The notes under the pieces are model-generated. The model had not been told where the DNA came from, made no database searches, and saw only the letters and a list, made by a program, of their open reading frames with translations. Both the position numbers and the translations under genes were made by a program. Of a DNA stretch of 40,378 nucleotides, positions 24,280 through 40,332 are shown piece by piece. The stretch's first letter is position 1. Each line of letters opens with the position of its first letter. The stretch is from a virus, in IMG/VR virus record IMGVR_UViG_3300050821_010422, positions 1 through 40,378 of that record; one strand, 5' to 3'.

Positions 24280-24529
24280 TACGGTGGCCAACCTGGTGCT
24301 TGTGGCGTTCTGCCTGTGGGCAGTTCTGAACAAGCACTTGGAAACTCATGTGTTCGGCACATTCGCTTTGTCGCTGGTCGCGATCACGTCTTTCGTGAAC
24401 GTCATGCGGCCGGATGCGCTTGGCTTCTGGGCGGAACAATCTGAAGTGCTGTCTAACGTTGCTGTCGCCATTCTGGCGGTGTGGTTTTGGCGCCGGTGGC
24501 ACAAGTGCAATTGCAAGGGAAGGAAATGA
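24263..24529 (+). CDS. Second small membrane protein, possible antiholin or holin
   Basis: The product has 88 residues with three hydrophobic helices (about 5-23, 31-50, 60-78) and a basic, Cys-containing C-terminus (WRRWHKCNCKGRK). Starts within the first holin-like gene and ends inside the endolysin gene. Pairs of overlapping small membrane proteins before an endolysin usually act as holin and antiholin, or as two alternative holins. Which one is which cannot be read from sequence. Confidence 0.6.
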   Translation: MIQLINTVANLVLVAFCLWAVLNKHLETHVFGTFALSLVAITSFVNVMRPDALGFWAEQSEVLSNVAVAILAVWFWRRWHKCNCKGRK

Positions 24530-25182
24530 TCTTGACACCTATTCAGCTCTCAATGGCGTTGCTCACCCCGATTGCGCGGGCAACAGACTGGGTTGCGCCG
24601 CTAAACGCAGCCCTGATCGAGTTTGGTATCAATACCCCAGCCAGGGCAGCGGCTTTCATTGCCCAAATCGGACATGAAAGCGCCGCATTGTCGCGGACGT
24701 CCGAGTCCTTTGATTACTCGGTGCAAGGACTGATTACTACATTCGGGAAACGAATTGCTGCCAACGCCGCAGTTCTGGGCCGGCAGCCAGGTGAAAGGGC
24801 CGTTCCTATTGAACGCCAGATTCGGATTGCCAATATCGTCTACGCAAGCCGCTACGGCAACGGTGATGCGGCAAGTGGTGATGGCTGGCGCTATCGCGGC
24901 GGCGGGCTGAAGCAGATCACGTTTCACGACAACTACGCCGCGTGCTCTGCGGCGCTGGGCGTCAATCTTCTGGTACAGCCGGAGCTGCTCGTGACCGATA
25001 AAAAGTTAGCTGCACGCTCGGCCGGTTGGTTCTGGCTGTCGATCGGCGGCAACGCTTACGTCGATCGCGGTGATTTCGATGGCCTGTCGACCCGAATCAA
25101 CGGCGCCGGCATCACTGCCGATAGCCTGGCCGCGCGGCGCGCGCGGTGGACGTGCTGCAGGTCAGCATTGGGGGGAGCATGA
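24526..25182 (+). CDS. GH19 endolysin
   Basis: The product has 218 residues. ATG 24526 has AAGGA just upstream; the longer frame from 24481 is rejected. It is a glycoside hydrolase family 19 (chitinase-fold) endolysin: AAFIAQIGHESAALSRTSESFDYS contains the catalytic Glu (E51), followed by YASRYGNGDAASGDGWRYRGGGLKQITFHDNY, a hallmark of the family, and WFWLSIGGNAYVD. It cuts peptidoglycan glycan strands. No signal peptide, so it needs the holin. The C-terminal end (WTCCRSALGGA) is slightly unusual in its Cys pair. Overlaps the i-spanin by 4 bases. Confidence 0.93.
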   Translation: MILTPIQLSMALLTPIARATDWVAPLNAALIEFGINTPARAAAFIAQIGHESAALSRTSESFDYSVQGLITTFGKRIAANAAVLGRQPGERAVPIERQIRIANIVYASRYGNGDAASGDGWRYRGGGLKQITFHDNYAACSAALGVNLLVQPELLVTDKKLAARSAGWFWLSIGGNAYVDRGDFDGLSTRINGAGITADSLAARRARWTCCRSALGGA

Positions 25183-25820: not shown

Positions 25821-26354
25821 TCAATTCTCTTCGACACCTTTGCCAGCAGTGTATGTGTATTCATATCCCCCATCTAATTTGATCAAGGATTGTTTTTTCC
25901 CCCATTTTGTACTTTTATAGTTATTGGCCCAATGATCATTTTTTCCGAACTTGTCAGAAATATACGGTTCCTTGCCTGTTAAATCCATTATTCTATAAAA
26001 AACTGGATTTTGAGACCTGCCGACTAAAACTAGCCGATAGACTTGCTTGCTGAAGTATTTTCTGTCGCCATATCGCTTCGTCTCTATTGCTGGAGAATTT
26101 TTATTAACTTGGAAATCTACAGCCGAATAGTCGATCGTCGTCCCAAAGTCGTCCTTTTCAGAATTACCCTTCAGTAGTATTTTCCCATTTAAAACAACGC
26201 TGCCATCATTGGTAAGTTGAATCATCCCAAATTGGGACGGATATTCATCCTTGATTAAACTGTCTTTGAGGTTTGATTTTTGACCATCTTCTGCAAAACC
26301 GATATGCGTCAAAGAACAAATAAATATAAAAATAAGAACTCTCATCGATTTCAT
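25821..26354 (-). CDS. Small secreted protein, probable T6SS immunity protein
   Basis: The product has 177 residues. ATG at 26354 overlaps the stop of the upstream LysM gene (ATGA). Residues 1-21 are a signal peptide (hydrophobic core, cut near AFAED-type end GFAED). The rest is a beta-rich domain with ISDKFGKNDHWANNYKSTKW. No family recognised. Very AT-rich compared with vgrG, typical of immunity genes. Periplasmic location and overlap with the cell-wall effector candidate support an immunity role (inference). Confidence 0.6.
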   Translation of the reverse strand: MKSMRVLIFIFICSLTHIGFAEDGQKSNLKDSLIKDEYPSQFGMIQLTNDGSVVLNGKILLKGNSEKDDFGTTIDYSAVDFQVNKNSPAIETKRYGDRKYFSKQVYRLVLVGRSQNPVFYRIMDLTGKEPYISDKFGKNDHWANNYKSTKWGKKQSLIKLDGGYEYTYTAGKGVEEN

Positions 26355-28003
26355 GCTGTTGCCCTGATCGCAATTGTAATTTCCAATAATTCTCTAACTT
26401 TCGGAGCATCGTCCGTCTTGCACATGTATTTAATTATACTTATTCGATCGTTGATAAAACCATTGAGCCAGGTTCTGTGTGCTAACAGATAATCATCGTT
26501 GGATTTTTCAGCTTTGTCAGCTGCACCATCTACACCAACCTGATTTTCTAGCAAATATTTTGCATGCGCAGCCGTCATGGTGTCATTGATAAACGCTTTC
26601 ACATCCGTCGGTCCCAAGTGGTGAGCCAGATATGCTATTTTGGCCTTTTCGCCGTCGTTGAGAGCGTCGAGCTTAAATTTTTCCTTCTTCAACATCGCCA
26701 GATTCTGCATGGCATAGTCTACTGCTGTGTGAATTGCGTATTCGGCTTCAAATCGCAAGTCGAGGATTTTTTGCAGATTCCCATCGCTGGCCGTAGCTCT
26801 TTTTGTTAGATACGGCTTGGAGGAAAGTTGTCTAGCGATGCTTATGGTGCCTTTTTTGGGCGTGAGTTTTGGCGTGACAAGCGATCCATTTTCGAGTTTG
26901 AATGCTTGAATCTCTTTGGTCTCGTCGCCTTTCTTATGCTTGATGGTCACCGTAGTGGTGGTCACCCATCCTTCCTTTTTTGCACGGGCATTTAAAAATG
27001 TGCCTTCGGTCAAAGCCAAATCGATCCAGGTCGCGTCCAAGAATTGCGTCATGCCACGAGCTGACGATAGTGACGATGCTGAGTTGGGATCCCACACAAA
27101 AGTGTCTTTGCGCTTCTTCTTGACGACAGGCTTTCCCTTTTTATCAAGTAGAGGTTTCCCGGTTTTTTTATCTTTTTGTGGCTCTTCCACTATCTCAAAA
27201 ATGGTGGCTGCCTCGGCGTTCATGATTGCCGCAATGGCCTGGGGAATGAGTCCGGCTCGATTGCCCGCAGCGACAATGTAGTCGTGATAAGTGAAGTTCT
27301 GTATTAACCTCAAATTCAGTTTGTTTGGGCATTCCAGCGAAACTTCTTGCACTGGATGGCCTGCCGCTGAGCGAGTGTCGGTGACGGTGCCAGGTGGCGT
27401 GGTCGTTTTTGTTGCTGAGCTGGCGGGAGTGTCGGTCGCGGGTGACGTAGCAGTGGCTGCTGGAGGAGCCGGGACTGGCACCGCTGATGGCGGTGTTACG
27501 GGAGCCGGGGGCTTGCCTTCGTGGGTACGTAGTTGCGATTGTACAGCCAGCTTGGGACTGTGCAATCGCACATAGGTGTTATCGCCCCTGGGGCTGACCG
27601 TGGCGATATGCTTGGATTTCCCGGTGACGGTCTTGACCTCGACCTTCACCTTGCTGGACTCGCTTTTTACATCGACGGGCGGTACTTCCCCTTCGCTGTT
27701 GGTGACATGTTCGACCGTTTCTCCGTCCAAATGCAACATCACCTTTAGATCTTTGATCGGTTGGTTGAGCACGTCCACAAACTGCATGAACAGTGTGCGC
27801 TCCTGGGGAGTTTGCTCGTGATGTCCTGACGCAGGGTGAGGTTCTGGAGTTTGTGCCGCAGGTACCTGCAGGTGCTGCCCGACGTGAATCAAATTGATGT
27901 TGGATAAATCATTCAACTCCGCAATGGCCTGCGGAGTACAGTGGTGCAGCTTTGCAATTTTCGTGAGTGTGTCGCCTCGTCGAACGGTATAGCTGGTGGT
28001 CAT
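26351..28003 (-). CDS. LysM lysozyme-fold protein, probable T6SS effector
   Basis: The product has 550 residues. Residues 3-49 are a LysM domain (peptidoglycan binding). Residues about 68-150 form a beta-sandwich module. Residues 165-225 are a Pro/Thr/Ala-rich linker. From about 240 comes a lysozyme or transglycosylase-like core: IPQAIAAIMNAEAA with a probable catalytic Glu264, and SSARGMTQFLDATW (313-326), interrupted by a Lys-rich insertion at 277-299. The C-terminal 200 residues are helical. No signal peptide, consistent with transport by VgrG. Overlaps vgrG upstream and the immunity candidate downstream by 4 bases each. Confidence 0.72.
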   Translation of the reverse strand: MTTSYTVRRGDTLTKIAKLHHCTPQAIAELNDLSNINLIHVGQHLQVPAAQTPEPHPASGHHEQTPQERTLFMQFVDVLNQPIKDLKVMLHLDGETVEHVTNSEGEVPPVDVKSESSKVKVEVKTVTGKSKHIATVSPRGDNTYVRLHSPKLAVQSQLRTHEGKPPAPVTPPSAVPVPAPPAATATSPATDTPASSATKTTTPPGTVTDTRSAAGHPVQEVSLECPNKLNLRLIQNFTYHDYIVAAGNRAGLIPQAIAAIMNAEAATIFEIVEEPQKDKKTGKPLLDKKGKPVVKKKRKDTFVWDPNSASSLSSARGMTQFLDATWIDLALTEGTFLNARAKKEGWVTTTTVTIKHKKGDETKEIQAFKLENGSLVTPKLTPKKGTISIARQLSSKPYLTKRATASDGNLQKILDLRFEAEYAIHTAVDYAMQNLAMLKKEKFKLDALNDGEKAKIAYLAHHLGPTDVKAFINDTMTAAHAKYLLENQVGVDGAADKAEKSNDDYLLAHRTWLNGFINDRISIIKYMCKTDDAPKVRELLEITIAIRATA

Positions 28004-30717
28004 GCTGAATCCTCATCGGGGTCCAAAGCTTCTTGGTCGTGCCAATCTGCCGTTTCTAGTTGTTGCGGGTCGTCTGCAAGGCTGGTATGTACTACCCAGT
28101 CACCGCTGCCCAGCAGTGCTTGATACACCGTCGGTGTATCCTCGTCCTTATGTCGATCATTTCTTCCGTCGCCGCCGGTATTGGCCACAATCGCAGCGCC
28201 GGTTGCTCCGAATTCGCGCGCGACTACATCGACACTTTGGCCAGGTGCGCTGTCAACGGCGCTAACAGCCTTCCAACGCAGGCTGTAGGGCGGGCCGCCT
28301 ATCGTGGGATCAGGAATCACAAAGGGCAAGTTCTTCGGCCCTGGCAGGCTGTGTGAGGCTGCATGCGCCACATAGGCGCCATTCGTTCCATGCTCGATGC
28401 CACCAGCATTGTATTTGACATAGCTACCGCCGCCGTTGATCACCACTTCTTCTTTTGCCGTGATTGTGATGCGGTTTGCCGTATGGGTGATATTAAGTTT
28501 GGCCAGCAGGTTGATGCTGTCTTTCAAAGCCTTGACGTCGACGTCGCCGGCAGCAGCTACCATCTTCATCCCGGCTTTTTGCACAAACAATCGAAAGGTT
28601 TTGCCGATACTGGCAAACACGCTATCACCGCTGGCGATCGATAGACTCTTGCCGGAGGTAATGGCGGTATGTACGCCGCTGGTGATGTGGGTCGATTGAG
28701 CGGTCGTGGTTTCGATGCCGGCCGGGCTGGCCAGCACCAGGTGCGGCTCCGACAACTCAGGGAAGGCGCCGTCGTCGCCGGCGCCGCTGCCTTTGATCGC
28801 TTCATTTTGCGTCTTCAGGACTTTTGCAACGTCTGCCTGCTGTCCCTGTTTATCTTGAGCACCAGCTTGTTCTGCGGTGTCCGCTAGCGTTTCATGCTGG
28901 TCGCGCGCCGCAGTTAGGCGGCTGACCGTCTCCCCCATGTCCTTGATATGCGAAGCCGCATTGCTGCGTGCCTCGGTGGTGATCAACATGCCCTTGGCCG
29001 AACGCGCCACGCCATGCCCGTCAGTGCGTAGCTCCCAGCCCTCGCCACGCGCATCCTTGCGCCCCGCATTGTCTTCAATCCGGGTAATGCTGCCCAGGCT
29101 CAGCTGGCTGTGCTGGTGATCGCTCTTCAGCTGGGCTTGAATTTTTCCATTAGTGTCGTCCAGAATCAGGTGGTTGCTTCTGCCCCCAGCCTGGTTGCCA
29201 CCGTTGGGCGTCAGTTCCCGGCTTCTGAAACCCATCAGGGACTGCTGGGTCGCCAGCTTCCATGGCGGCATATTGCGCTGGTTGTAGACACTGCCGGTGA
29301 CGATGGGACGGTCGGGATTGCCATCGAGCCATTGGACGAGACATTCCGAACCCACGCGGGGGATCGACTTCGCGCCCAGTTGCCCGCCAGCCCATGCGCT
29401 GGCGACACGCACCCAGGCCGAGCTGCGTTCATCGTTGTTGCCCATGCGGTCCCAGTGGAACTGCACGCGTATCCTGCCGAATTCGTCGGTGTGAACGCTG
29501 CCCTGACCGGAAGGACCGACCACGGTGACAGTTTGCGGAGCTTGGATCTTGGTGTTGACACTGTGATAGTTGCGGCCCGGACGCCAGGGGATGGTCTTGC
29601 GCAGGCAGGTCAGTTCATTGCGGTATTCGGCCTTCTGGTCGGCCTGCTGCAAGTAGTTGTTGCTAGCGATGTGGTGCACCGAGATGATCAGGAATTCATT
29701 CTTACCGGCGTCTTCGTGGCTGGCGAACGGGCTGTTGGAAAAATGGCCGGTAAGGCGGTACCAACGTCCTGGCAGCACGTAGCGGTTATTGCCTGCGGCT
29801 TCAAAGTGCTTGCCTGCGGCTTCGATCTCTTCCATGCGCAGCCGTGACAGCTTGTCGGCATCCTGAGCACCTTTGACACCATAAGCGCCGGTATATTCGT
29901 AGGATTCAACATCCTGCACATTGCCCTGCTTGTTCAGGGTTGGCACGCCGGCATTGATCGGCACCGGGCTTTTGAAATTGAAACCGGAGAGTGAGACGGA
30001 ACCGGGAACGATCTGGCGCACCGGAGAAAACTCGCCGATGCCGTCTTCTTCAAAGGCGCCGCCATGGCGCTGGAAGCGGATCTCTGCGCCACCGTCGATG
30101 GGCGCGGCCTGGGTGGAGTCATCGGTGATGATGAGTTTATGGCCCTTGTCGCTGTGCTCGTAGTAGTACAGCAGGCCGGCCGCTTCCAGGCGACGGTGGA
30201 CGTAGTTATGGTCGCTCTCATCGAACTGGATCGCGTCCGTCATGACCGGATCGGTGCCGCTGACACGATAATCCCAATCGGGCAAGGTGCCGTAATCGGC
30301 GCAGATGCTGTCGATCTGTTCGCGCAGGGTCTTGCCGTGAAAGATGTAGTTGTCTTTGCGCAGGCGCAGGTACTGGGTCCAGGGTCCCAGCTTGGCTTGA
30401 TAGAAGACGATATTGCCGTCGGTGCGGAGCAGGCGGAACTCGAAGCAGTAGCCGGTGAAGTAGCGCAGGCTGCCGTCGGCTCTCACCAGTTCTACACAGA
30501 ACAGCTTGCCTTGCAGATCCTTCAGGGCCAGCTCGGCCTCATCGGACAATAGCTCCACGGTGTAGCCGAAATCGCGCGACAGGCTTTCGACGGCATCGAG
30601 CTTGTTGACCAGCAGCTGCGCTTGCGGACCGTCGTCGTGCGGGAAGGAGAGGCGGAGAACACGGTTGTTCTGCCGGCCCTGGATCAAGGCGGACAGGGAT
30701 TGCAGCAAGCTACTCAT
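28000..30717 (-). CDS. vgrG: T6SS spike protein VgrG
   Basis: The product has 905 residues. N-terminal gp27-like part: LQGKLFCVELVRADGSLRYFTGYC, FHGKTLREQIDSICADYG and FDESDHNYVHRRLEAAGLLYYYEH. An OB fold follows (VTVVGPSGQGSVHTDEFGRIRVQFHWDRMG; RVASAWAGGQLGAKSIPRVGSECLVQWLDGNPDRPIVTGSVYN), and a DUF2345-type beta-helix (residues about 650-785). The last 118 residues (788-905) form an extra, more acidic domain, which may recruit the effector. SD GAGG lies 9 bases upstream of the ATG. The gene runs against the phage genes. No other type VI structural genes are in the window, so this is an orphan spike cassette. Confidence 0.95.
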   Translation of the reverse strand: MSSLLQSLSALIQGRQNNRVLRLSFPHDDGPQAQLLVNKLDAVESLSRDFGYTVELLSDEAELALKDLQGKLFCVELVRADGSLRYFTGYCFEFRLLRTDGNIVFYQAKLGPWTQYLRLRKDNYIFHGKTLREQIDSICADYGTLPDWDYRVSGTDPVMTDAIQFDESDHNYVHRRLEAAGLLYYYEHSDKGHKLIITDDSTQAAPIDGGAEIRFQRHGGAFEEDGIGEFSPVRQIVPGSVSLSGFNFKSPVPINAGVPTLNKQGNVQDVESYEYTGAYGVKGAQDADKLSRLRMEEIEAAGKHFEAAGNNRYVLPGRWYRLTGHFSNSPFASHEDAGKNEFLIISVHHIASNNYLQQADQKAEYRNELTCLRKTIPWRPGRNYHSVNTKIQAPQTVTVVGPSGQGSVHTDEFGRIRVQFHWDRMGNNDERSSAWVRVASAWAGGQLGAKSIPRVGSECLVQWLDGNPDRPIVTGSVYNQRNMPPWKLATQQSLMGFRSRELTPNGGNQAGGRSNHLILDDTNGKIQAQLKSDHQHSQLSLGSITRIEDNAGRKDARGEGWELRTDGHGVARSAKGMLITTEARSNAASHIKDMGETVSRLTAARDQHETLADTAEQAGAQDKQGQQADVAKVLKTQNEAIKGSGAGDDGAFPELSEPHLVLASPAGIETTTAQSTHITSGVHTAITSGKSLSIASGDSVFASIGKTFRLFVQKAGMKMVAAAGDVDVKALKDSINLLAKLNITHTANRITITAKEEVVINGGGSYVKYNAGGIEHGTNGAYVAHAASHSLPGPKNLPFVIPDPTIGGPPYSLRWKAVSAVDSAPGQSVDVVAREFGATGAAIVANTGGDGRNDRHKDEDTPTVYQALLGSGDWVVHTSLADDPQQLETADWHDQEALDPDEDSA

Positions 30718-30991: not shown

Positions 30992-33900
30992 ATGCAATTG
31001 GCCGTTATGTCTACCGTCCCGCCAGTTCTCCCTGACTATGCTGAGCTTCAGTGTCTCAGTCATTACACATTTTTAAGAGGAGCTTCGGCGCCGGAGCACT
31101 TAGTTCAGCGTGCTGCCCAGCTGGGATATGCTGGCCTGGCCGTGACGGATGAATGTACGCTTGCCGGCGTGGTGAAAGCACATGTGGAGGCCAAGCGGGT
31201 AGGGTTGCACTTGGTGGTCGGTAGCCAGATACTCATCACGCCGGAGGACGGCAGCCCGGCGTTCACGGTGATTTTTCTAGCGACGAATCGCAATGGCTAC
31301 GGAAACCTTTCAGAACTGATCACCGTCGCCCGCATGCGGGCGGAGAAAGGCCATTATTTGCTCAGGCCGCGGGATCTCACCGAACCCTCTGACGACTTAG
31401 TTCACCTGAAGGGTTTGCCGGACTGCCAGTTGATTTTGGCTCCAAGTTATGGCGTCGGCAGCCAGGAGCTTCGGCGCCAAGTTGCCTGGTTGGCTCAGTG
31501 CGCACCAGGCCGCGCGCGTGTCGCTCTTGCGTTACATCTTCAATCGCAAGACGAACGGCACCGGGCGCGGGTTACTGCGGCGGCGGAAGAGTTCGCCTTG
31601 CCCGTCGTGGCGACCGGCGACGTTTGTATGCACAAGCGCTCATTTAAGCCCGTTCAAGACACCATGACGGCCATCCGGTTGGGTATTCCGCTCACCGAAT
31701 GCGGTTACCACCTTCCTCCGAATGCTGAGCAGCACTTGCGCTCACGGCTTCGGCTGGGCAATCTATATTCGCGCGAAGCACTAGATGAATCTGTTCGCAT
31801 CGCCAAGCTTTGCCAGTTTTCGCTTGATGAGCTGCGATATGAATATCCAGAGGAACTGATTCCCAAGGGGGAAACGCCGACAAGCTATCTGCGTAAGGAA
31901 GCCTACATTGGCGCGCAGGCACGATACCCGGCCGGTGTGCCCGCAAACGTTCAGAACCAACTGGAGTACGAGCTCGCGCTGATCGCGGAAATGCAATACG
32001 AAAGCTATTTCCTGACTGTCTTCGACATCGTTCGTTTCGCGCGTGCTCAGCAAATTCTCTGCCAAGGTCGGGGATCGGCCGCAAACAGCGCGGTCTGTTA
32101 TTGCCTTGGTGTGACGGAGGTTGATCCGGCGCGCGGCACACTTTTGTTCGAACGCTTCATTTCCAAGGAACGTAACGAGCCGCCAGACATCGACATTGAC
32201 TTCGAGCACCAGCGGCGCGAAGAGGTGATCCAGTACATCTATAAAAAATACGGTCGCATGCGCGCCGCCCTGACCGCGGTCGTCATTTCTTATAGGCCGC
32301 GCAGCGTGCTGCGGGACGTCGGTAAAGCACTTGGCGTTGACCCCATGGTTGTCGACAGAGTAGCAAAGGCTGGCCATGGCTGGGGTGGGAAGGCCGATCT
32401 GCGAGAGCGGCTGCTGGCGTGCGACTTTAATCCGGATTCCCACATATCGGAAATGTGGGGTGCATTGGCCGATAAGTTGATGCGCTTTCCGCGACATCTG
32501 TCCCAGCATCCCGGCGGATTCGTCATATCCCACACAAAGCTTTCTCGCTTGGTGCCAATCGAAAACGCGGCGATGCCTGAGCGCTCTATTGTGCAATGGG
32601 ACAAGGACGACCTCGACGCCGTCGGCTTACTCAAAATCGATATTCTGGCGCTGGGTATGCTGAGCTGCATTCGCCGCGCCCTGGAGCTCGTTGCTGAGCA
32701 GCGCGGGGAAGCGTTTGAACTCCGTGACATTCCCGCGGAGGACCCGGCTACTTACGAGATGATCTCGCAAGCAGATACTGTGGGCGTTTTCCAGATCGAG
32801 AGTCGGGCGCAGATGTCGATGCTGCCGCGGCTGCAGCCGCGCTGTTTCTATGACCTCGTAATCGAGGTGGCAATCATACGGCCTGGCCCGATTCAAGGCG
32901 GCATGATCCATCCGTACCTACGGCGGCGCCAAGGTATTGATCCGGTGACCTACCCAAGCCCCCAAATGGAGGCAGTTCTCTCGCGCACGCTGGGAGTTCC
33001 AATTTTCCAAGAGCAAGTAATGCAGATTGCCATGGTGGCTGCTGGGTTTTCAGCTGGTGAGGCGGATCGACTTCGCCGCGCAATGGCCGCCTGGAAGCGA
33101 AAAGGAGGCTTGGAACAATTCGAGGACAAGCTCATGACCGGCATGGCCGACCGAGGGTATTCGACCGAGTTTGCAACCTCGATCGTTGGACAAATTCGGG
33201 GGTTCTCAGAATATGGGTTTCCGGAGTCGCACGCGGCAAGTTTCGCGCTGCTCGCCTATGCAAGCAGCTGGCTCAAATGCCATGAGCCGGCGGCCTTTCT
33301 CACGGCACTATTGAATTCTCAGCCCATGGGGTTCTATTCGCCATCATCCCTGGTGCAAGACGCGGTCAGGCATGGGGTAGTGGTTCGCCCGGTCGACGTC
33401 TGCAATAGCACCTGGGACGCAAAGCTGGAGCCAATCGCGGGTAGCGGAGCCGCGGTCAGGCTCGGATTAAACAACATTCGGGGTCTGGAGCGCGACGCTG
33501 GCTGGCGCATCGAGGAGGCGAGGGCAGTACGGTATTTTAGCGATATTGGTGATTTATCTAGGCGTGCTCGGTTGAATGCCGGTCACTTACAAGCGTTGGC
33601 CGGCGCTAACGCGCTAGAGCCCTTGGTGGGGAATCGACGGCAGGCGGTCTGGCAAGCTGTGGCCGGCGTGCCTGACAAAGGCTTGCTGCGGGCGGCGCCG
33701 ATTCTGGAAGAGCCGCTGCTGCTGGAGGCACCGTCTGAGGCTGAAACGATCGTGTCGGACTATCACCACCTGGGGCTGACGCTCGGACGACATCCACTAT
33801 GCTTGCTGCGCACTCGGTTGGCAAAGATGCGCTTCTTGCCGGCAGTGATATTGAATCAATTCGAGGATGGCCGACTAGCCCGCGGATGCGGTATTGTAAC

Positions 33901-34153
33901 GGTACGGCAACGCCCGGAGACGGCGAAAGGGGTGATTTTCGTCACGCTGGAGGATGAAACAGGAAACGTCAACGTCATCGTCTGGCCGAATCTGGTCGAG
34001 AAGCAGCGCAAGGAATTGTTGAACGCGTCCCTGTTGGGCGTATACGGTAAATGGCAGTGCCATAGCAATGTGCGGCACCTGGTGGCGATGCGGCTGGTCG
34101 ATTTGTCGCATCTACTGGGCGAGCTGGAAACCCACAGCCGGGACTTTTCCTAG
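30992..34153 (+). CDS. dnaE2: Error-prone DNA polymerase DnaE2
   Basis: The product has 1053 residues from ATG 30992; the next in-frame ATG, at 31007, is an alternative start. Residues 1-290 are the PHP domain ([22 protein letters not shown]). The polymerase palm carries DIDIDF (399-404, catalytic Asp pair) and Asp550 in [10 protein letters not shown], as in DnaE-type polymerases; [18 protein letters not shown] and [37 protein letters not shown] are DnaE2 signatures. An OB domain lies near residues 930-1010. DnaE2 does lesion bypass and SOS mutagenesis. It normally works with ImuA and ImuB, which are not in the window. No beta-binding replicase tail is present. Confidence 0.95.
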   Translation: [1053 protein letters not shown]

Positions 34154-34184
34154 TCCGACTGTGACCTGCAGCGGGAGGTGGCCT

Positions 34185-34865
34185 ATGTGTGTAAATTACG
34201 AAACAGTATCGAGAGAAATTCTATACGACACTTTCGATGTCCAGATGGACCCCGACGTGGAGTGGCGTGGCGAGCTGTACAAGGACTACCTGGGACCGAT
34301 AATTGTCCACAATGCTGACGGAGCGCGCCAGGGACTGCTTGCGAACTACGGCATGCTACCTAAGCAGCACATGCGGCCGGGCGAGGCGTTTAGCACTATG
34401 AATGCCAGAGCCGAAACGATCGGCCAGCTGCGAAGCTATAAACCATACTGGACCGCCGGCAATCTCTGCCTGGTGCCTATGCACGCATTTTATGAGCCGA
34501 ATTGGGAGGGTGAGGAGCACGTCCGTTGGAAGATCGGAATGGCTGACGAATCACCATTTGCGGTGGCAGGTATCTATCGCCAATGGCAGGAGCACGATGG
34601 CGGGACCTCCTGGGCATTTACGCAAATAACGATCAATGCCGACGAGCATCCGCTGATGAAACGATTTCACAAAAAGAATGACGAGAAGCGGTCATTGGTG
34701 ATCCTATGTCCAAGCGAGTATGACGACTGGCTTTCATGCCGGGATCCAGAGAGAGCCCGTGCATATCTCCAGCAGTTTCCGGCTGAGTTGATGAATGCAG
34801 TTCCCGCACCGAAGGAAAGAAAACAAAAAAGAGAAGCCCTACCGGACAACCTGGATCTATTTTGA
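34185..34865 (+). CDS. yedK: SRAP/HMCES abasic-site protein (YedK family)
   Basis: The product has 226 residues. ATG 34185 follows GGGAGG at 6 bases, so the catalytic Cys is at position 2 after removal of Met (MCVNYE). The other catalytic residues are in place: N73 in MNARAET, E104 in HAFYEPNW and H155 in ADEHPLMKRF. The family forms a protective DNA-protein crosslink with abasic sites in single-stranded DNA. It starts 31 bases after dnaE2 and is likely in the same SOS operon, which fits its role. Longer starts upstream are out of place because they would move the Cys from the N-terminus. Confidence 0.93.
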   Translation: MCVNYETVSREILYDTFDVQMDPDVEWRGELYKDYLGPIIVHNADGARQGLLANYGMLPKQHMRPGEAFSTMNARAETIGQLRSYKPYWTAGNLCLVPMHAFYEPNWEGEEHVRWKIGMADESPFAVAGIYRQWQEHDGGTSWAFTQITINADEHPLMKRFHKKNDEKRSLVILCPSEYDDWLSCRDPERARAYLQQFPAELMNAVPAPKERKQKREALPDNLDLF

Positions 34866-34950: not shown

Positions 34951-36075
34951 GTGGCTATAAACCGAGTTTGTTCTTCCTGCTTCGATGATAAAGACTTGCG
35001 TTCTTGGGTGCGCGAGGCCAACGGACGTAGGGGATGTGATGCGTGTGGAAAATTTGATTCGCCGACCTGCAAGTTATCCGAAATTTGCGAGCGTATTGAG
35101 TCTTGTTTGAAAAATTACTGGGGATTTGCAGTCGAACAACTGCCGTATGAATCCGCTGAAGGAGGGTATCAAGGTACCACATGGAACACGGGCGAACTTT
35201 TAAGCGACGAAGTAGGGCTGTTCCTTCCCCGTGACAATCGCAATCGTCTTTTTTACGCAATTATAGGTGGACTCACTGACGAGGCATGGTGCGACTACGA
35301 TTGGCTAACCTTAGATCATGATGTCGCGCTTGGAGCCAGTTGGGAAAGCTTCTGCGAGACTGTTAAGCATAAGCGGAGATTTTTCTTTCATTCTGAAGGT
35401 GCAGATGATCGTGACTCCTATACTGCACTGTCTCTCCTGGCAGCGATTGCGATAACGAGTGAGCGAATTGGACTAATTCGCGATTTATCTATAAACACCA
35501 AGCTATGGCGGGCTCGTCCTGATCTCGCCAAAGGGAAAAGGGTTTGCGCAGCTAGTTTTGGTCCGCCGCCCGAGGAGTTCGCTCTGCAAAGCAATCGAAT
35601 GAATCCTCCCGGTATTCCAATGCTCTATCTTGCATCTTCCGCCAAGACGGCGCTTAAGGAGACGCGGGCACGCGAAGCCCGAGTCGGCCAGTGGGTGGCC
35701 GCAAGGCCGCTGCGGGTGCTTGACTTGCGTGATCTACCAGACGTGCCAGGAATTTTTTCAGATACCGCTAGGAACGAGCGGCTTGAGTTGATTTTCCTCC
35801 ATCGGTTTGCCAGAGACGTTATGACTCCGGTCGAACGCGATCAACGAGTTCATGTCGACTACCTGCCGTCTCAAGTAGTGACAGAGTTTTTCCGTGACTT
35901 TGATTTTGAAAATGGAAGACTTGACGGTGTCGCCTACGGAAGTACCGTTCACCCTACTGGATGGAATGTAGCGCTTTTCGCCAATCTGGTCGATCTGGGC
36001 CTCGAGATACGAAAATGGGGAGCCCGGTCCGCGCCTTGGCTCCACTATATGCATTCAGTTCGGACTAGGCTATAA
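34951..36075 (+). CDS. HEPN/RES-domain protein with zinc ribbon
   Basis: The product has 374 residues from GTG 34951 (AGAGGA six bases upstream). A CxxC-CxxC ribbon (C7, C10, C29, C32) is followed by the N-terminal module seen in HEPN/RES proteins (ICERIESCLKNYWGFAVEQLPYES, SDEVGLFLPRD). The RES domain spans about 180-350: WRARPDLAKG (Arg187), NPPGIPMLYLASSAKTALKETRAR (Glu237) and VYLPSQVVTEFFRDFDFENGRLDGVAYGSTV-type end. RES domains include NAD-degrading toxins. Its neighbours and lower GC suggest a defence cassette. No separate Xre-type antitoxin gene is next to it, so it may be controlled by its own N-terminal part. Confidence 0.8.
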   Translation: MAINRVCSSCFDDKDLRSWVREANGRRGCDACGKFDSPTCKLSEICERIESCLKNYWGFAVEQLPYESAEGGYQGTTWNTGELLSDEVGLFLPRDNRNRLFYAIIGGLTDEAWCDYDWLTLDHDVALGASWESFCETVKHKRRFFFHSEGADDRDSYTALSLLAAIAITSERIGLIRDLSINTKLWRARPDLAKGKRVCAASFGPPPEEFALQSNRMNPPGIPMLYLASSAKTALKETRAREARVGQWVAARPLRVLDLRDLPDVPGIFSDTARNERLELIFLHRFARDVMTPVERDQRVHVDYLPSQVVTEFFRDFDFENGRLDGVAYGSTVHPTGWNVALFANLVDLGLEIRKWGARSAPWLHYMHSVRTRL

Positions 36076-36147
36076 ACTTCATTGTTCTACAATGTCCAAT
36101 ACACATAGTGCAACAGGGTTGAACCAACGAGGTAAGGGGAAAATGTA

Positions 36148-37782
36148 ATGGCTTGGGGAATGAAGGAGCAAATTGACCATTTGGAGAAGTTACTTGTCCC
36201 TGGCGTGGTTGGGATGTATCGAAGTTTTGAGGTGACCGAGATTGTCGGCTACCAGGCCGGCACTCCAGCTAGAAATTTCCTAAGTTTGTTAGTCGCTGAG
36301 CCAGGTGAACCATCTGCGACATCGCAAACTGCACCGTCCTTTATCAATTCGGCGCCCATTAAACTACGTGGGACCGCTTGGCAGTTTGGCGTCGTGAGAT
36401 ACCGCGTAGCGCCAGAGCAGGTGCTGGAAGCCCTTCGTCGCTTCGGGACGAGCGGAACTTGGAAACCTGGCGCCGCCACCTTGGAAGTAGGAAATCTCAT
36501 CGCGGTGCCGCCGCAGTTCGTACCTGCGGACTCGTATCGGCCACATCCTTGGAACGGTGTACTGAAAAATAACTACTGGGATGGTTCGCATGTCCTCGAG
36601 ATGTTCGATATTACAAAGAACGATGTACGTTTTCTATTGGATAAGCCGAAGTTGCTCGCCGAACTCGCAGCGCTCATTCGTCCGTGCGTTCCGATAGGAA
36701 TTGACGGGTTGTCGGACAGGTTGGGAAATGTCTTAATCCAGCTACCAGTCACTGTAGTCGTGACAAAAGTAGGTGGCCAGCAAGAAAGTGACTTTCCGCT
36801 TGAGCCGACCTGGCATCCAAACGCCGAACCGCGCCCGTTGCGAATATCTTGGGAGATGTACGAGGACGGCACGATGGAAGACTTCGCATCGACCGCTGTT
36901 GACGGTGGGCCTGCCAAGTTTCCATTTTACTCGCAGCGTATGGGCGCGCGGTATGTTGTATGGGACGACTGTAATAAGGTGATTCTCGGCGCCTCAGCGC
37001 AGACAGCTTTCTTTGGCGGTCGCGGGATGGTAAGCGTGACGATTTCGGGGATGAATTCTGAAACGCGTGATTTTAAGGTGCCTGGGGTCGATGGCAAGCT
37101 CGAGCCGATCAGCAAGATCCTTCACGAGTCGAATCCGCGTGGGGTCGTAACTGACATGCCGACCGGCAATCCACGTGAACCTTGGCGTTCTCGAAGAGTG
37201 TTCAGAGAAAGCCTTCACGCGCTCCAGCAGCGCAAGGAATTCGTTCAGTATGGAAGGCCGTCAAATGCAGGCCCCGTTGAAGCCTTTGCCGATATTCGCT
37301 GGCTACTTGAACAACACGGAATGAATGGTGCCTGGATTTGGGACCCTTTTCTCAATGCTAAGGATGTACTAAATACGCTCTTCTTTTGTCCACATCCAGG
37401 CGCAGATCTGAGGGCACTGTCATCAGGGAAAAAAGTGTCAAGCTGCAGGAAAGGTGTAGCTACTGAAGGGAAAGTTGGTCGTCCCTGGAAGGTAGAACAA
37501 CAGGAGCTCATGGAAGAAGCACAGGGCAATTGCGCAGGCTTGAATCTGGAGTTCCGCAGCCGCGGAGGAAGGGCCGGGTGGTCTTTCCATGACCGTTTCC
37601 TTATATTTCCGGGAGCAGCTGGTGGCGCCAGCGCATGGTCCCTTGGAGCCTCCGTCAACAGCTTGGGCAAGAAGCATCATATCCTGCAAAAGGTCTCTGA
37701 CGGCGAGCTAATTCGGCAATCGTTTCTGGAACTTTGGAACACACTTGCAGCCCCTGACTATCTTGTATGGAAGAAACCATGA
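36148..37782 (+). CDS. VPA1262-like protein with PLD-like half motif
   Basis: The product has 544 residues. ATG 36148 has AAGGGGA eight bases upstream. The N-terminal ~330 residues resemble the VPA1262 family, as I recall it (LVPGVVGMYRSFEVTEIVGYQAGTPARNFLSLLVAEP; VPPQFVPADSYRPHPWNGVLKNNYWDGSHVLEMF). The C-terminal part (about 390-530) looks like one phospholipase-D-type repeat: WIWDPFLNAKDVL, then FHDRFLIF with His481 and, 19 residues later, GASVNSLGKKHHIL (from Gly500). Only one HxK/R-like motif is visible, so activity would need a dimer, if any. The overlap with the next gene by 4 bases indicates a fixed partnership. Confidence 0.6.
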   Translation: MAWGMKEQIDHLEKLLVPGVVGMYRSFEVTEIVGYQAGTPARNFLSLLVAEPGEPSATSQTAPSFINSAPIKLRGTAWQFGVVRYRVAPEQVLEALRRFGTSGTWKPGAATLEVGNLIAVPPQFVPADSYRPHPWNGVLKNNYWDGSHVLEMFDITKNDVRFLLDKPKLLAELAALIRPCVPIGIDGLSDRLGNVLIQLPVTVVVTKVGGQQESDFPLEPTWHPNAEPRPLRISWEMYEDGTMEDFASTAVDGGPAKFPFYSQRMGARYVVWDDCNKVILGASAQTAFFGGRGMVSVTISGMNSETRDFKVPGVDGKLEPISKILHESNPRGVVTDMPTGNPREPWRSRRVFRESLHALQQRKEFVQYGRPSNAGPVEAFADIRWLLEQHGMNGAWIWDPFLNAKDVLNTLFFCPHPGADLRALSSGKKVSSCRKGVATEGKVGRPWKVEQQELMEEAQGNCAGLNLEFRSRGGRAGWSFHDRFLIFPGAAGGASAWSLGASVNSLGKKHHILQKVSDGELIRQSFLELWNTLAAPDYLVWKKP

Positions 37783-39215
37783 CGTTGAAAGCCAAAGAGC
37801 TAGCCAGGGCCACGTTCCGAATGGCCAACGGAGTCGGTCCCGCCGAGCAGCCCAAGTCCCTCCAGCAATTCGTTAGCCAAGTGCGCAGTACGGACGGGCC
37901 GTTAAGTACTCTGGATACTCAATCGCTAGCGCAATCAGTTTATGCAGAATTCCAATTTCTTGGACCACTAGTTCGAGACGGGATCATGCCAGACTCCGCG
38001 TCGATGGCTCGCTGGGAAGCCGCCGTGCGCTGGATTTTGACCGGCTTGCGCAATTGGAATTCGAACAAGACTAACGCGCTCATCGAGCTTCAGGCTTTGC
38101 TGACATCGGTACAAGCCCTAGATGCCGACTCTGCGGGGCTTGAAAATATAGCTGCCCTGTTAGATGGCGACGAGATGGAGGATGCTTTGCTGGGACTCGT
38201 TGAGAATGCGAATGTCGGCCCATTTGGGGGAGTTGATCGGCGCTTTCCTAATTTGGCTCAGGATCTAAAAGTGGCAACGCAGCAAGGTGAATATAGAGGG
38301 CTGGGTTACATTCTTCCACAAGTGATGCCAGAATTTCGTTCCGACCTGTCGGCGGCTGTCATCCTCTTGTGGAAATTGGTGCCAGGTAAGCTGGCGATAG
38401 CAGTGTCCAAGAAAGACGAGGTTCTTTTTTCAATGTTCGTGTGCCGAAGCTTAAGGGAGAACGCCGCCCATTTCGCGCTCGACGTCCCACTCGGGTCTTT
38501 CAAGTTCGTCAGTATTTCAGACATTCCATGCGGTCCAAAGATCGACCGTACGACACAGGTCTGGGGCGATCTGTTACGGCAAATACTCGTACAAGTTGCT
38601 GAAACCTCGGATTGGGTTGGATGGATGCTGGCTTTGTACAGATCGCCTCACAGCGAGTCGAACGCGGGGAGTGCGTTGGCCGACGCACTTGTAGATTTAG
38701 AGGAAGGGCATTGGTTTGCGTTCGTACAGGCCCTGTCTTTGGGGCATTCCCATGCGGCGGCGGGGCCGGTGGCGCAGATTATGGCTCGATTTGCCAGTCG
38801 TGTTGAAGCATCCAAGGCCAAAATAATGTGGTCTATTGCCTTCGCACGTTGGGACGAATGGAACTATGCTAAGGGCGAGCAGCAGACATATTTGTTCGCG
38901 CCCGCGAGTTGCGCACTAGATTACCCTGTATCGATGTACTACTCGCAATTGTCGGGCCCGGAACTTGACAAGGAGGACGCGAGGCTCACGAAAATCGTGG
39001 AGCAGATAGAGCAACAGTGGTTCGAGTCGGCTTCAGACCTCACCACTGAGCGGAACAGGCTATTGTCCCGCCTGCGGCTGGTGCGGCATGCGATGGAGCT
39101 AAGGGTATCTGATGCAAATCTGCTTCCTCCTGCTATCCAGCCAGACGCCGCCCCATATGCCCGCCTTCGCTATCTTTACTATGATATTCATCATCGTGAG
39201 TCACCTAGTGCGTAG
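37779..39215 (+). CDS. Unrecognised helical protein, partner of the VPA1262-like protein
   Basis: The product has 478 residues. ATG 37779 overlaps the preceding stop (ATGA), with GGAAG just upstream; ATG 37767 is also in frame. The sequence is mostly helical, with hydrophobic blocks in repeating order, many Trp/Leu residues (WEAAVRWILTGLRNWNSNKTNALIELQALL; SDWVGWMLALYRSPH) and no catalytic motif that I can see. No signal peptide or membrane segment. It probably acts in complex with the upstream gene product; function unknown. Confidence 0.65.
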   Translation: MTLKAKELARATFRMANGVGPAEQPKSLQQFVSQVRSTDGPLSTLDTQSLAQSVYAEFQFLGPLVRDGIMPDSASMARWEAAVRWILTGLRNWNSNKTNALIELQALLTSVQALDADSAGLENIAALLDGDEMEDALLGLVENANVGPFGGVDRRFPNLAQDLKVATQQGEYRGLGYILPQVMPEFRSDLSAAVILLWKLVPGKLAIAVSKKDEVLFSMFVCRSLRENAAHFALDVPLGSFKFVSISDIPCGPKIDRTTQVWGDLLRQILVQVAETSDWVGWMLALYRSPHSESNAGSALADALVDLEEGHWFAFVQALSLGHSHAAAGPVAQIMARFASRVEASKAKIMWSIAFARWDEWNYAKGEQQTYLFAPASCALDYPVSMYYSQLSGPELDKEDARLTKIVEQIEQQWFESASDLTTERNRLLSRLRLVRHAMELRVSDANLLPPAIQPDAAPYARLRYLYYDIHHRESPSA

Positions 39216-39393: not shown

Positions 39394-40011
39394 ATGAAAA
39401 AAAATATCGGAATACTACTTTCAAAATTGGTGTTGCTCTGCACTGTTCTCGCTTCATGCACGTCTTCTCAAGTACTAACCTCTCAAGCTCCTCCGTATCC
39501 TGAGGAGGCGTTACGCTATGGGTTAGAAGGTGATGTAGTTGTCGAGTACTATCTTAACAACGAAGGGCGTGCAGAAAATGTTAGGGTTACGAAAAGTAGC
39601 GGGTGGAAAATATTAGACGACGCGACTGTGGCATCAACAAGAAATTTGCACTTTCCAGTTGGTTCAGGAAATGACGCTCCGGCAAAGACACATAAGATCA
39701 AAACTTCTTGGAAATTGAATAACGTTCAAGCTTCGTCTCCTTCATATATCATTACTGGCAGCTGCGCTAAATCCGAGCGATTTATCGACTTTAGAAATTC
39801 GAAGGAAGGAGACGGATTGCTGGTCCGCTTTCTAACAGGTGTTGATGGCCGGCCTTTTGGAATTAAAATTGAGGACAGCGCGGTTGATCAAGTCACGATC
39901 GATTCCGCAGTGGCATTTATTCAAAACTGCAGTTTCACACCGAGCATAAATTTGCATGATGGGCACGTTGTCGTCGGAAGTGGCTTTGCACGACTCATTT
40001 CTAGGACATAG
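39394..40011 (+). CDS. Lipoprotein with two TonB-C-like repeats
   Basis: The product has 205 residues. ATG 39394 has AGGA seven bases upstream. Lipobox LASC with Cys22 and a preceding hydrophobic core predict an outer-membrane lipoprotein. Residues about 33-90 resemble the TonB C-terminal domain (PPYPEEALRYGLEGDVVVEYYLNNEGRAENVRVTKSSGWKILDDATV-like), and a second, weaker copy runs from about 130 (DGLLVRFLTGVDGRPFGIKIEDSAVDQVTIDSAVAF). No TonB membrane anchor, so it is not an energy transducer. Function unknown; it lies by itself between the cassette and the att site. Confidence 0.7.
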   Translation: MKKNIGILLSKLVLLCTVLASCTSSQVLTSQAPPYPEEALRYGLEGDVVVEYYLNNEGRAENVRVTKSSGWKILDDATVASTRNLHFPVGSGNDAPAKTHKIKTSWKLNNVQASSPSYIITGSCAKSERFIDFRNSKEGDGLLVRFLTGVDGRPFGIKIEDSAVDQVTIDSAVAFIQNCSFTPSINLHDGHVVVGSGFARLISRT

Positions 40012-40241: not shown

Positions 40242-40261
40242 TGATTCCACCCTCTCCGCCA
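40242..40261 (+). other. Attachment site: tRNA-Ser 3' end
   Basis: TGATTCCACCCTCTCCGCCA has the form of the last 20 bases of a bacterial tRNA-Ser (end of the T loop, T stem, acceptor 3' side with CTCTCCGCCA). No tRNA body precedes it: the bases before are AT-rich and do not fold. A truncated tRNA end is the mark of a phage or island att site. The intact tRNA-Ser gene should lie beyond the left edge. Confidence 0.7.
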
Positions 40262-40295
40262 GATATTAGTTTCAAATAGATCTAAGAAGTCCCAG

Positions 40296-40332
40296 AACCC
40301 GCATATCTCACTATGAGAATGCGGGTTTTTCG
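40296..40332 (+). terminator. Intrinsic terminator after the tRNA-Ser fragment
   Basis: AACCCGCAT (40296-40304) pairs with ATGCGGGTT (40319-40327), with an inner CTCA/TGAG pairing, and is followed by T residues. It is in the place where the original tRNA-Ser terminator would stand, which supports a chromosomal flank here. Confidence 0.75.

Follow-up and report, generated by a model that had tools for sequence, protein, structure and literature searches.

Near one end of a 40,378-nucleotide stretch of viral DNA (IMG/VR record IMGVR_UViG_3300050821_010422, analysed whole and called the window here), three genes on the plus strand stand in a row, and the question that they raise is whether they make up a single anti-phage system or contain a smaller one. 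An earlier note on this DNA had taken all three together as a cassette in which the first gene, encoding a RES protein, would be the effector and the other two would sense or activate. Our results point instead to the second and third genes, here called V and X (36148-39215), as a self-contained candidate anti-phage module of two genes, forming part of the cargo of an integrated element and lying close to one end of that element; we give this reading a probability of about 0.6. The arrangement itself is as the note had described it (Table 1), with a GC content of 0.51 in gene 1, 0.53 in V and 0.54 in X, below the 0.58 of the phage block, and with a 4-base overlap (ATGA) between the last two genes; an alternative in-frame ATG of X at 37767 would lengthen this overlap to 16 bases.

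Table 1. Features of the three-gene stretch and of the nearby element end; positions are those of the window
Feature	Positions	Strand	Basis
Gene 1, Zn-ribbon + HEPN/RES-NTD1 + RES, 374 aa	34951-36075	+	PF18870 E 7e-36 (124 bits), PF08808 E 9e-20 (71.7 bits)
Gene V, VPA1262-family, 544 aa	36148-37782	+	NF040700 E 7e-81; AlphaFold2 model; 68-sequence alignment
PLD-like domain of V, residues 345-544	37180-37779	+	hhalign to P0001; P0001 to PLDc_2
FHDRF motif of V, F480-F484	37585-37599	+	invariant in 68/68 homologues
G-x-S-x-N motif of V (G500, S502, N504)	37645-37659	+	invariant in 68/68 homologues
Gene X, 478 aa, all-helical (predicted)	37779-39215	+	X homologue 3' of V in 79/80 loci; AlphaFold2 model
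tRNA-Ser-like 3' end, possible att core at element end	40250-40261	+	single exact match, 12 bases

Homologues of V were collected from 72,556 plasmids (6 loci), 84,980 genomes (79 loci) and viral contigs (4 loci), and the pairing with X was counted on the 80 non-duplicate loci, including the window, that continue for at least 900 bases after V, the other loci ending too soon. A homologue of X lies 3' of V in all of these except one (L080), which is a metagenome assembly. At 73 of the 80 loci, a codirectional open reading frame of at least 300 amino acids is found at the stop codon of V, mostly overlapping it; an iterative HMM search joined 72 of these frames to the X of the window, nearly all of them overlapping V or starting within 15 bases of it, while the 73rd (L001) proved to encode an IS630 transposase, X following it closely. 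Elsewhere, X was reached by profile as a miscalled or broken frame (L054 and L074) or is seen as a tblastn match only, at the right place (L019, L036, L043, and L044). The distance matrices of V and X correlate with r of 0.91, a value equalled in none of 2,000 permutations, although a mirror correlation of this kind is also expected from plain co-inheritance. V and X are tightly linked in an operon of two genes that has been inherited as a unit across several phyla, with a range covering Proteobacteria, Firmicutes, Bacteroidota, Acidobacteriota, and possibly an archaeal assembly, and the coupling of genes 2 and 3 in the earlier note is borne out.

Some individual loci deserve mention in their own right. 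On the Bradyrhizobium plasmid of L001 (8678-11473), the IS630 insertion splits V from X. Four further loci (L025, L058, L060, and L062) carry a V frame with one internal stop codon and are apparently decaying copies. A V homologue with 39% identity (L096:4928-6682) occurs in a 6.8-kb unannotated record from human faeces named 'Bacteriophage sp.', which is either a sign of the module on phage-like DNA or a record of host DNA.

V belongs to the VPA1262 family, known from the Vibrio parahaemolyticus island VPaI-6 and represented by the NCBIfam models NF040700 and NF040699. It matches the first of these (VPA1262_N_dom) over 455 residues and model positions 17-477 of 478 with 272.4 bits, above the curated cut-off of 80 bits; against the 1,026-position model of the full-length protein it scores 17.4 bits, short of the cut-off of 325, through its PLD-like part only. 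The family is named in NCBIfam, and no function was described for it in the literature searched. The AlphaFold2 model of V (pLDDT 87, pTM 0.70) predicts an alpha/beta part at residues 1-185, a beta-sandwich at about 195-325, and a PLD-like alpha/beta domain at the C-terminus. Sequence and fold searches of the PDB returned no solved relative, the fold matches being mostly fibronectin-type beta-sandwiches. In the alignment of 68 homologues, 28 columns are invariant, and 32 of the 48 columns conserved in at least 95% of the sequences lie in the PLD-like domain; the N-terminal parts also hold invariant residues (K140, N141, N142, G146, D190, G193, and R307).

By sequence comparison, the last 200 residues of V are PLD-like, their homology to the PLD superfamily running through one relative, P0001, encoded on a Klebsiella plasmid. 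The V family aligns with P0001 at a probability of 98.3 and an E value of 1e-14 (hhalign), and P0001 in turn matches Pfam PLDc_2 above the curated cut-off (E value of 1e-9) at the residues aligned to V; neither the window protein nor the family consensus has a direct Pfam match to a PLD model. This bridge upholds the PLD-type C-terminus with an HxR motif that the earlier note had read in gene 2, the His481 that it had named being that of FHDRF. Among the fold matches of V are two PLD-fold proteins, the Orf virus major envelope protein (probability of 0.99, E value of 0.014) and polyphosphate kinase (E value of 0.02), both of them weak alone. The last part of V also resembles the C-terminus of the PADLOC candidate PDC-S05, a model of 306 positions that is matched by 38 of the 68 V homologues (best E value of 1e-5) and by the window protein over 49 residues (E value of 1e-3), only the C-terminal motif being common to the two.

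The signature of this domain is altered. The HxK(x4)D pattern is absent from V, in which H481 and R483 of H481-D482-R483 stand for the His and the Lys, Lys being replaced by Arg, and P488 occupies the position of the Asp; the phosphate-binding part of the signature is kept as G500-x-S502-x-N504. Written out, the motifs are HDRFLIFP...GASVN in the window protein and HDRFIAVD...GSSLN in P0001, the latter corresponding to HxR(x4)D followed by G-S-x-N. Every one of the 68 aligned homologues has H481, D482, R483, G500, S502, N504, and H510; for FHDRF, this invariance is partly the result of selection, since the loci were found in part through conserved V motifs that include this pattern. Compared with the nucleases and phosphodiesterases of the PLD superfamily (PLDc_2), V keeps one half-PLD per chain, the His, and G-x-S-x-N, but differs from them in that its motif reads HDR with the Asp replaced by Pro, in the fusion to an N-terminal alpha/beta part and beta-sandwich, and in its pairing with a predicted solenoid.

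Catalysis by V is not certain, because it has Arg and Pro in place of the canonical Lys and Asp. The same two substitutions, together with a weak match of one V homologue to MIT_C, a PLD-fold domain (E value of 0.15), would suit a PLD-like domain that is non-enzymatic and serves in binding or at the membrane, an explanation compatible with any of the other readings of the locus. We consider it unlikely, however, given that H481, R483, S502, N504, and H510 are invariant throughout the alignment and that P0001 keeps HxR(x4)D.

X has no match in Pfam, NCBIfam, or PADLOC, in agreement with the earlier note, which had found no known domain in gene 3. Its AlphaFold2 model (pLDDT 91.7, pTM 0.90) consists almost only of helices in repeated pairs, and X is predicted from this model to be a solenoid; PDB searches by sequence and by fold gave no solved relative, the fold matches being mostly to unrelated solenoids. 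X diverges faster than its partner, with a mean identity to the window protein of 19% versus 36% for V.

Judged from the sequences, the most likely division of labor is that V acts as a phosphodiesterase in the form of a dimer of half-PLD domains and that X acts as its sensor or keeper. V would dimerize, each chain contributing one PLD half, and the dimer would cleave or transfer on a phosphodiester, most likely of a nucleic acid; X would bind V and either hold it inactive or sense a product of infection, and the fast divergence of X would then reflect an arms race. We infer the enzyme step from the conserved residues of V, and the role of X and the target are putative. More tentatively, and with somewhat less than even confidence, we suggest that V-X represents a new anti-phage type, in which a dimeric H-D-R PLD-like enzyme, with H510 as an extra invariant histidine and with a K-N-N...D..G site, also invariant, in its N-terminal part, is gated by a hypervariable solenoid sensor, and of which a fused one-gene form and a three-gene form with a second PLD-like subunit, the latter on a Klebsiella plasmid, would be variants.

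The fused form, found in a Vibrio genome (L100), is a protein of 908 amino acids that scores above the NF040699 cut-off and in which the PLD-like region (AWFDPF ... IHDRM) is followed by a long C-terminal part on the same chain. The three-gene form, on a Klebsiella variicola plasmid (L106:5858-10183), consists of overlapping or abutting genes for P0001, a protein of 213 amino acids, and a protein of 639 amino acids; the second of these has a further PLD-like motif, HDRFAIID (PLDc_2 E value of 0.05, below the cut-off), and the variant falls in no family beyond PLDc_2. X was considered as a homologue of the C-terminal part of the fused protein or of the third Klebsiella protein and was rejected in both cases, there being no detectable similarity; the parallel of these forms with V-X is therefore one of layout only. 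Paired, fused, and two-subunit arrangements of a PLD-like protein may represent an evolutionary series.

The argument for a role in defense comes from the neighborhood. Across 20 genomes, the six larger open reading frames lying closest to V-X matched 94 PADLOC models at an E value of 1e-15, versus 18 in control regions with the same number of frames elsewhere on the same contigs, a tally that counts models, several of which match one protein. The matches near V-X include Thoeris ThsA and ThsB, a CBASS cyclase and phospholipase, AbiEi and AbiEii, reverse transcriptases, SIR2, and a type II methylase, while those in the control regions are mostly general ATPases and GlgB; plasmid copies of V-X adjoin CBASS, type I restriction-modification, reverse transcriptase, and restriction genes. 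Since V-X neighbors are enriched in known defense models, a defensive role is supported by association. No described system in PADLOC-DB 2023 matches both proteins, V having only PDC-S05 and X no match. The V-X pair is thus widespread, previously undescribed, and placed among anti-virus genes, and it is probably anti-virus itself. Of the multi-gene anti-phage system envisaged in the earlier note, the part that holds is the V-X pair among defense genes, and the part that does not is the membership of the RES gene. What emerges is a concrete candidate immune system, located in defense islands and absent from the 2023 defense-system library.

The strict pairing could also be that of a toxin-antitoxin or element-maintenance pair in which X neutralizes V and any effect on phage is secondary, and the occurrence of the two overlapping genes on plasmids, on prophage-like contigs, and in islands next to integrases would be in keeping with this. 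Proteins of 544 and 478 amino acids are, however, large for a classical pair of that kind, and we regard this explanation as rather unlikely.

Gene 1 is a different matter. Its start codon is GTG, and the encoded protein has two CxxC pairs (residues 7-10 and 29-32) and passes the Pfam cut-offs for both HEPN_RES_NTD1 and RES, which makes it a HEPN/RES-NTD1-RES protein, a class in which the zinc ribbon is optional and here present; the zinc ribbon and RES domain read by the earlier note are confirmed, and the Arg187 and Glu237 that it had singled out fall in the RES part. HEPN/RES-NTD1 is a mostly helical N-terminal domain that occurs in fusions with either HEPN or RES domains, and the layout of zinc ribbon, NTD1, and RES has already been published (Anantharaman et al. 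2013, PMC3710099); gene 1 shares it with no difference that we could see and is an ordinary member. Because "HEPN" in the name of the model denotes an N-terminal domain common to HEPN- and RES-fused proteins, gene 1 is not a HEPN nuclease: Pfam gave no match to a HEPN domain in it, only to the distinct NTD1 model, and the label of HEPN protein has to be withdrawn. In RES-Xre modules, the toxin is the RES protein, which degrades NAD, according to Skjerning et al. 2019 as cited in PMC9503650, and the same activity may be supposed for gene 1. It shares the RES domain, with Arg187 and Glu237, with these toxin-antitoxin modules but differs from them by its extra N-terminal domains, and neither of its neighbors in the window, a SRAP gene upstream and V downstream, is an Xre or HTH antitoxin gene. 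Relatives of gene 1 occur on plasmids of Comamonas (59% identity), Agrobacterium (45%), Roseovarius (43%), and Vibrio and Gordonia (both 30%) as single genes, with no V or X alongside and in some cases near other defense genes. Gene 1 is a separate toxin made up of a single gene, one that probably depletes NAD, and shares its stretch of cargo with V-X.

A system of three genes, in which V and X would activate the RES protein as effector, is what the common strand and the 72-base gap between gene 1 and V, where a consensus for neither a promoter nor a terminator was detected, would suggest. A search of about 85 other V loci with gene 1 (tblastn) returned no homologue, and HEPN/RES-NTD1 proteins stand beside V in none of them. 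Searches with the Pfam RES model over 50 whole V-bearing genomes and with a home-made RES profile over all V loci returned the same single case (L030), so that RES and V-X, which the earlier note had expected to co-occur, almost never do, a result close to the complete lack of co-occurrence that the note itself had named as refuting its reading. In L030, a RES gene lies 96 bases upstream of V, in some agreement with the three-gene system, but it is a different, short toxin gene that overlaps an upstream HTH-containing partner gene of its own, in the manner of a toxin-antitoxin pair. The position upstream of V is otherwise taken by guaA (GMP synthase), gyrB, integrases, a resolvase, restriction enzymes, a Fic-like gene, and others, named from reading of the sequences and from plasmid annotations. 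As X is near-constant after V, while the upstream position varies and RES is near-absent from it, the unit is V-X and gene 1 is a neighbor; the three-gene cassette is rejected, with the RES protein as its effector very unlikely, also in view of its closest relatives, which have neither V nor X beside them. The restriction enzyme, DUF2971, and HEPN-like genes just upstream of V at several loci, on plasmids, had also raised the idea of a modular V-X with an exchangeable upstream effector (RES in the window), which we dropped as highly improbable, since an upstream frame within 300 bases is codirectional in 44 of 84 loci, close to chance for orientation, many of the genes in this position are housekeeping genes or integrases, and clustering in defense islands explains the remainder. 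The focus thereby moves off the RES gene: work on gene 1 as the effector of V and X would probably fail, whereas a clear answer could come from V-X by itself.

The setting of the three genes in the window calls for two corrections to the earlier note. The first concerns its placement of the cassette next to a phage: genes for VgrG, a LysM protein, DnaE2, and SRAP lie between the lysis genes and gene 1, so the cassette does not directly adjoin the phage structural genes. On the phage side, a lysis gene for a GH19-like endolysin is found at 24481-25182. It is followed on the minus strand (25824-30717) by three open reading frames, encoding a protein of 177 amino acids of no recognized kind, a LysM protein of 550 amino acids, and a VgrG protein with DUF2345 of 905 amino acids; this block resembles a spike cassette of a type VI secretion system more than it does phage genes. 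Between it and gene 1 (30992-34865) lie a DnaE2-type polymerase gene, with no full copy of imuA or imuB identified by it in the window, and then a SRAP (YedK-like) gene. The second correction concerns the tRNA-Ser att site, of which a 12-base tRNA-Ser-like 3' end remains: ARAGORN found no tRNA gene in the window, and neither an integrase nor the second junction of the presumed element was identified. The 12-mer gives at least one match with up to one mismatch in 18 of 100 shuffles, and a strong terminator follows it (about 40294-40330; z of -3.7 for the region); together, the two fit an integration junction in a tRNA-Ser gene without proving one. Between X and this att-like end, a lipoprotein-like gene with a TonB C-terminal domain (E value of 1e-16) occupies 39394-40011.
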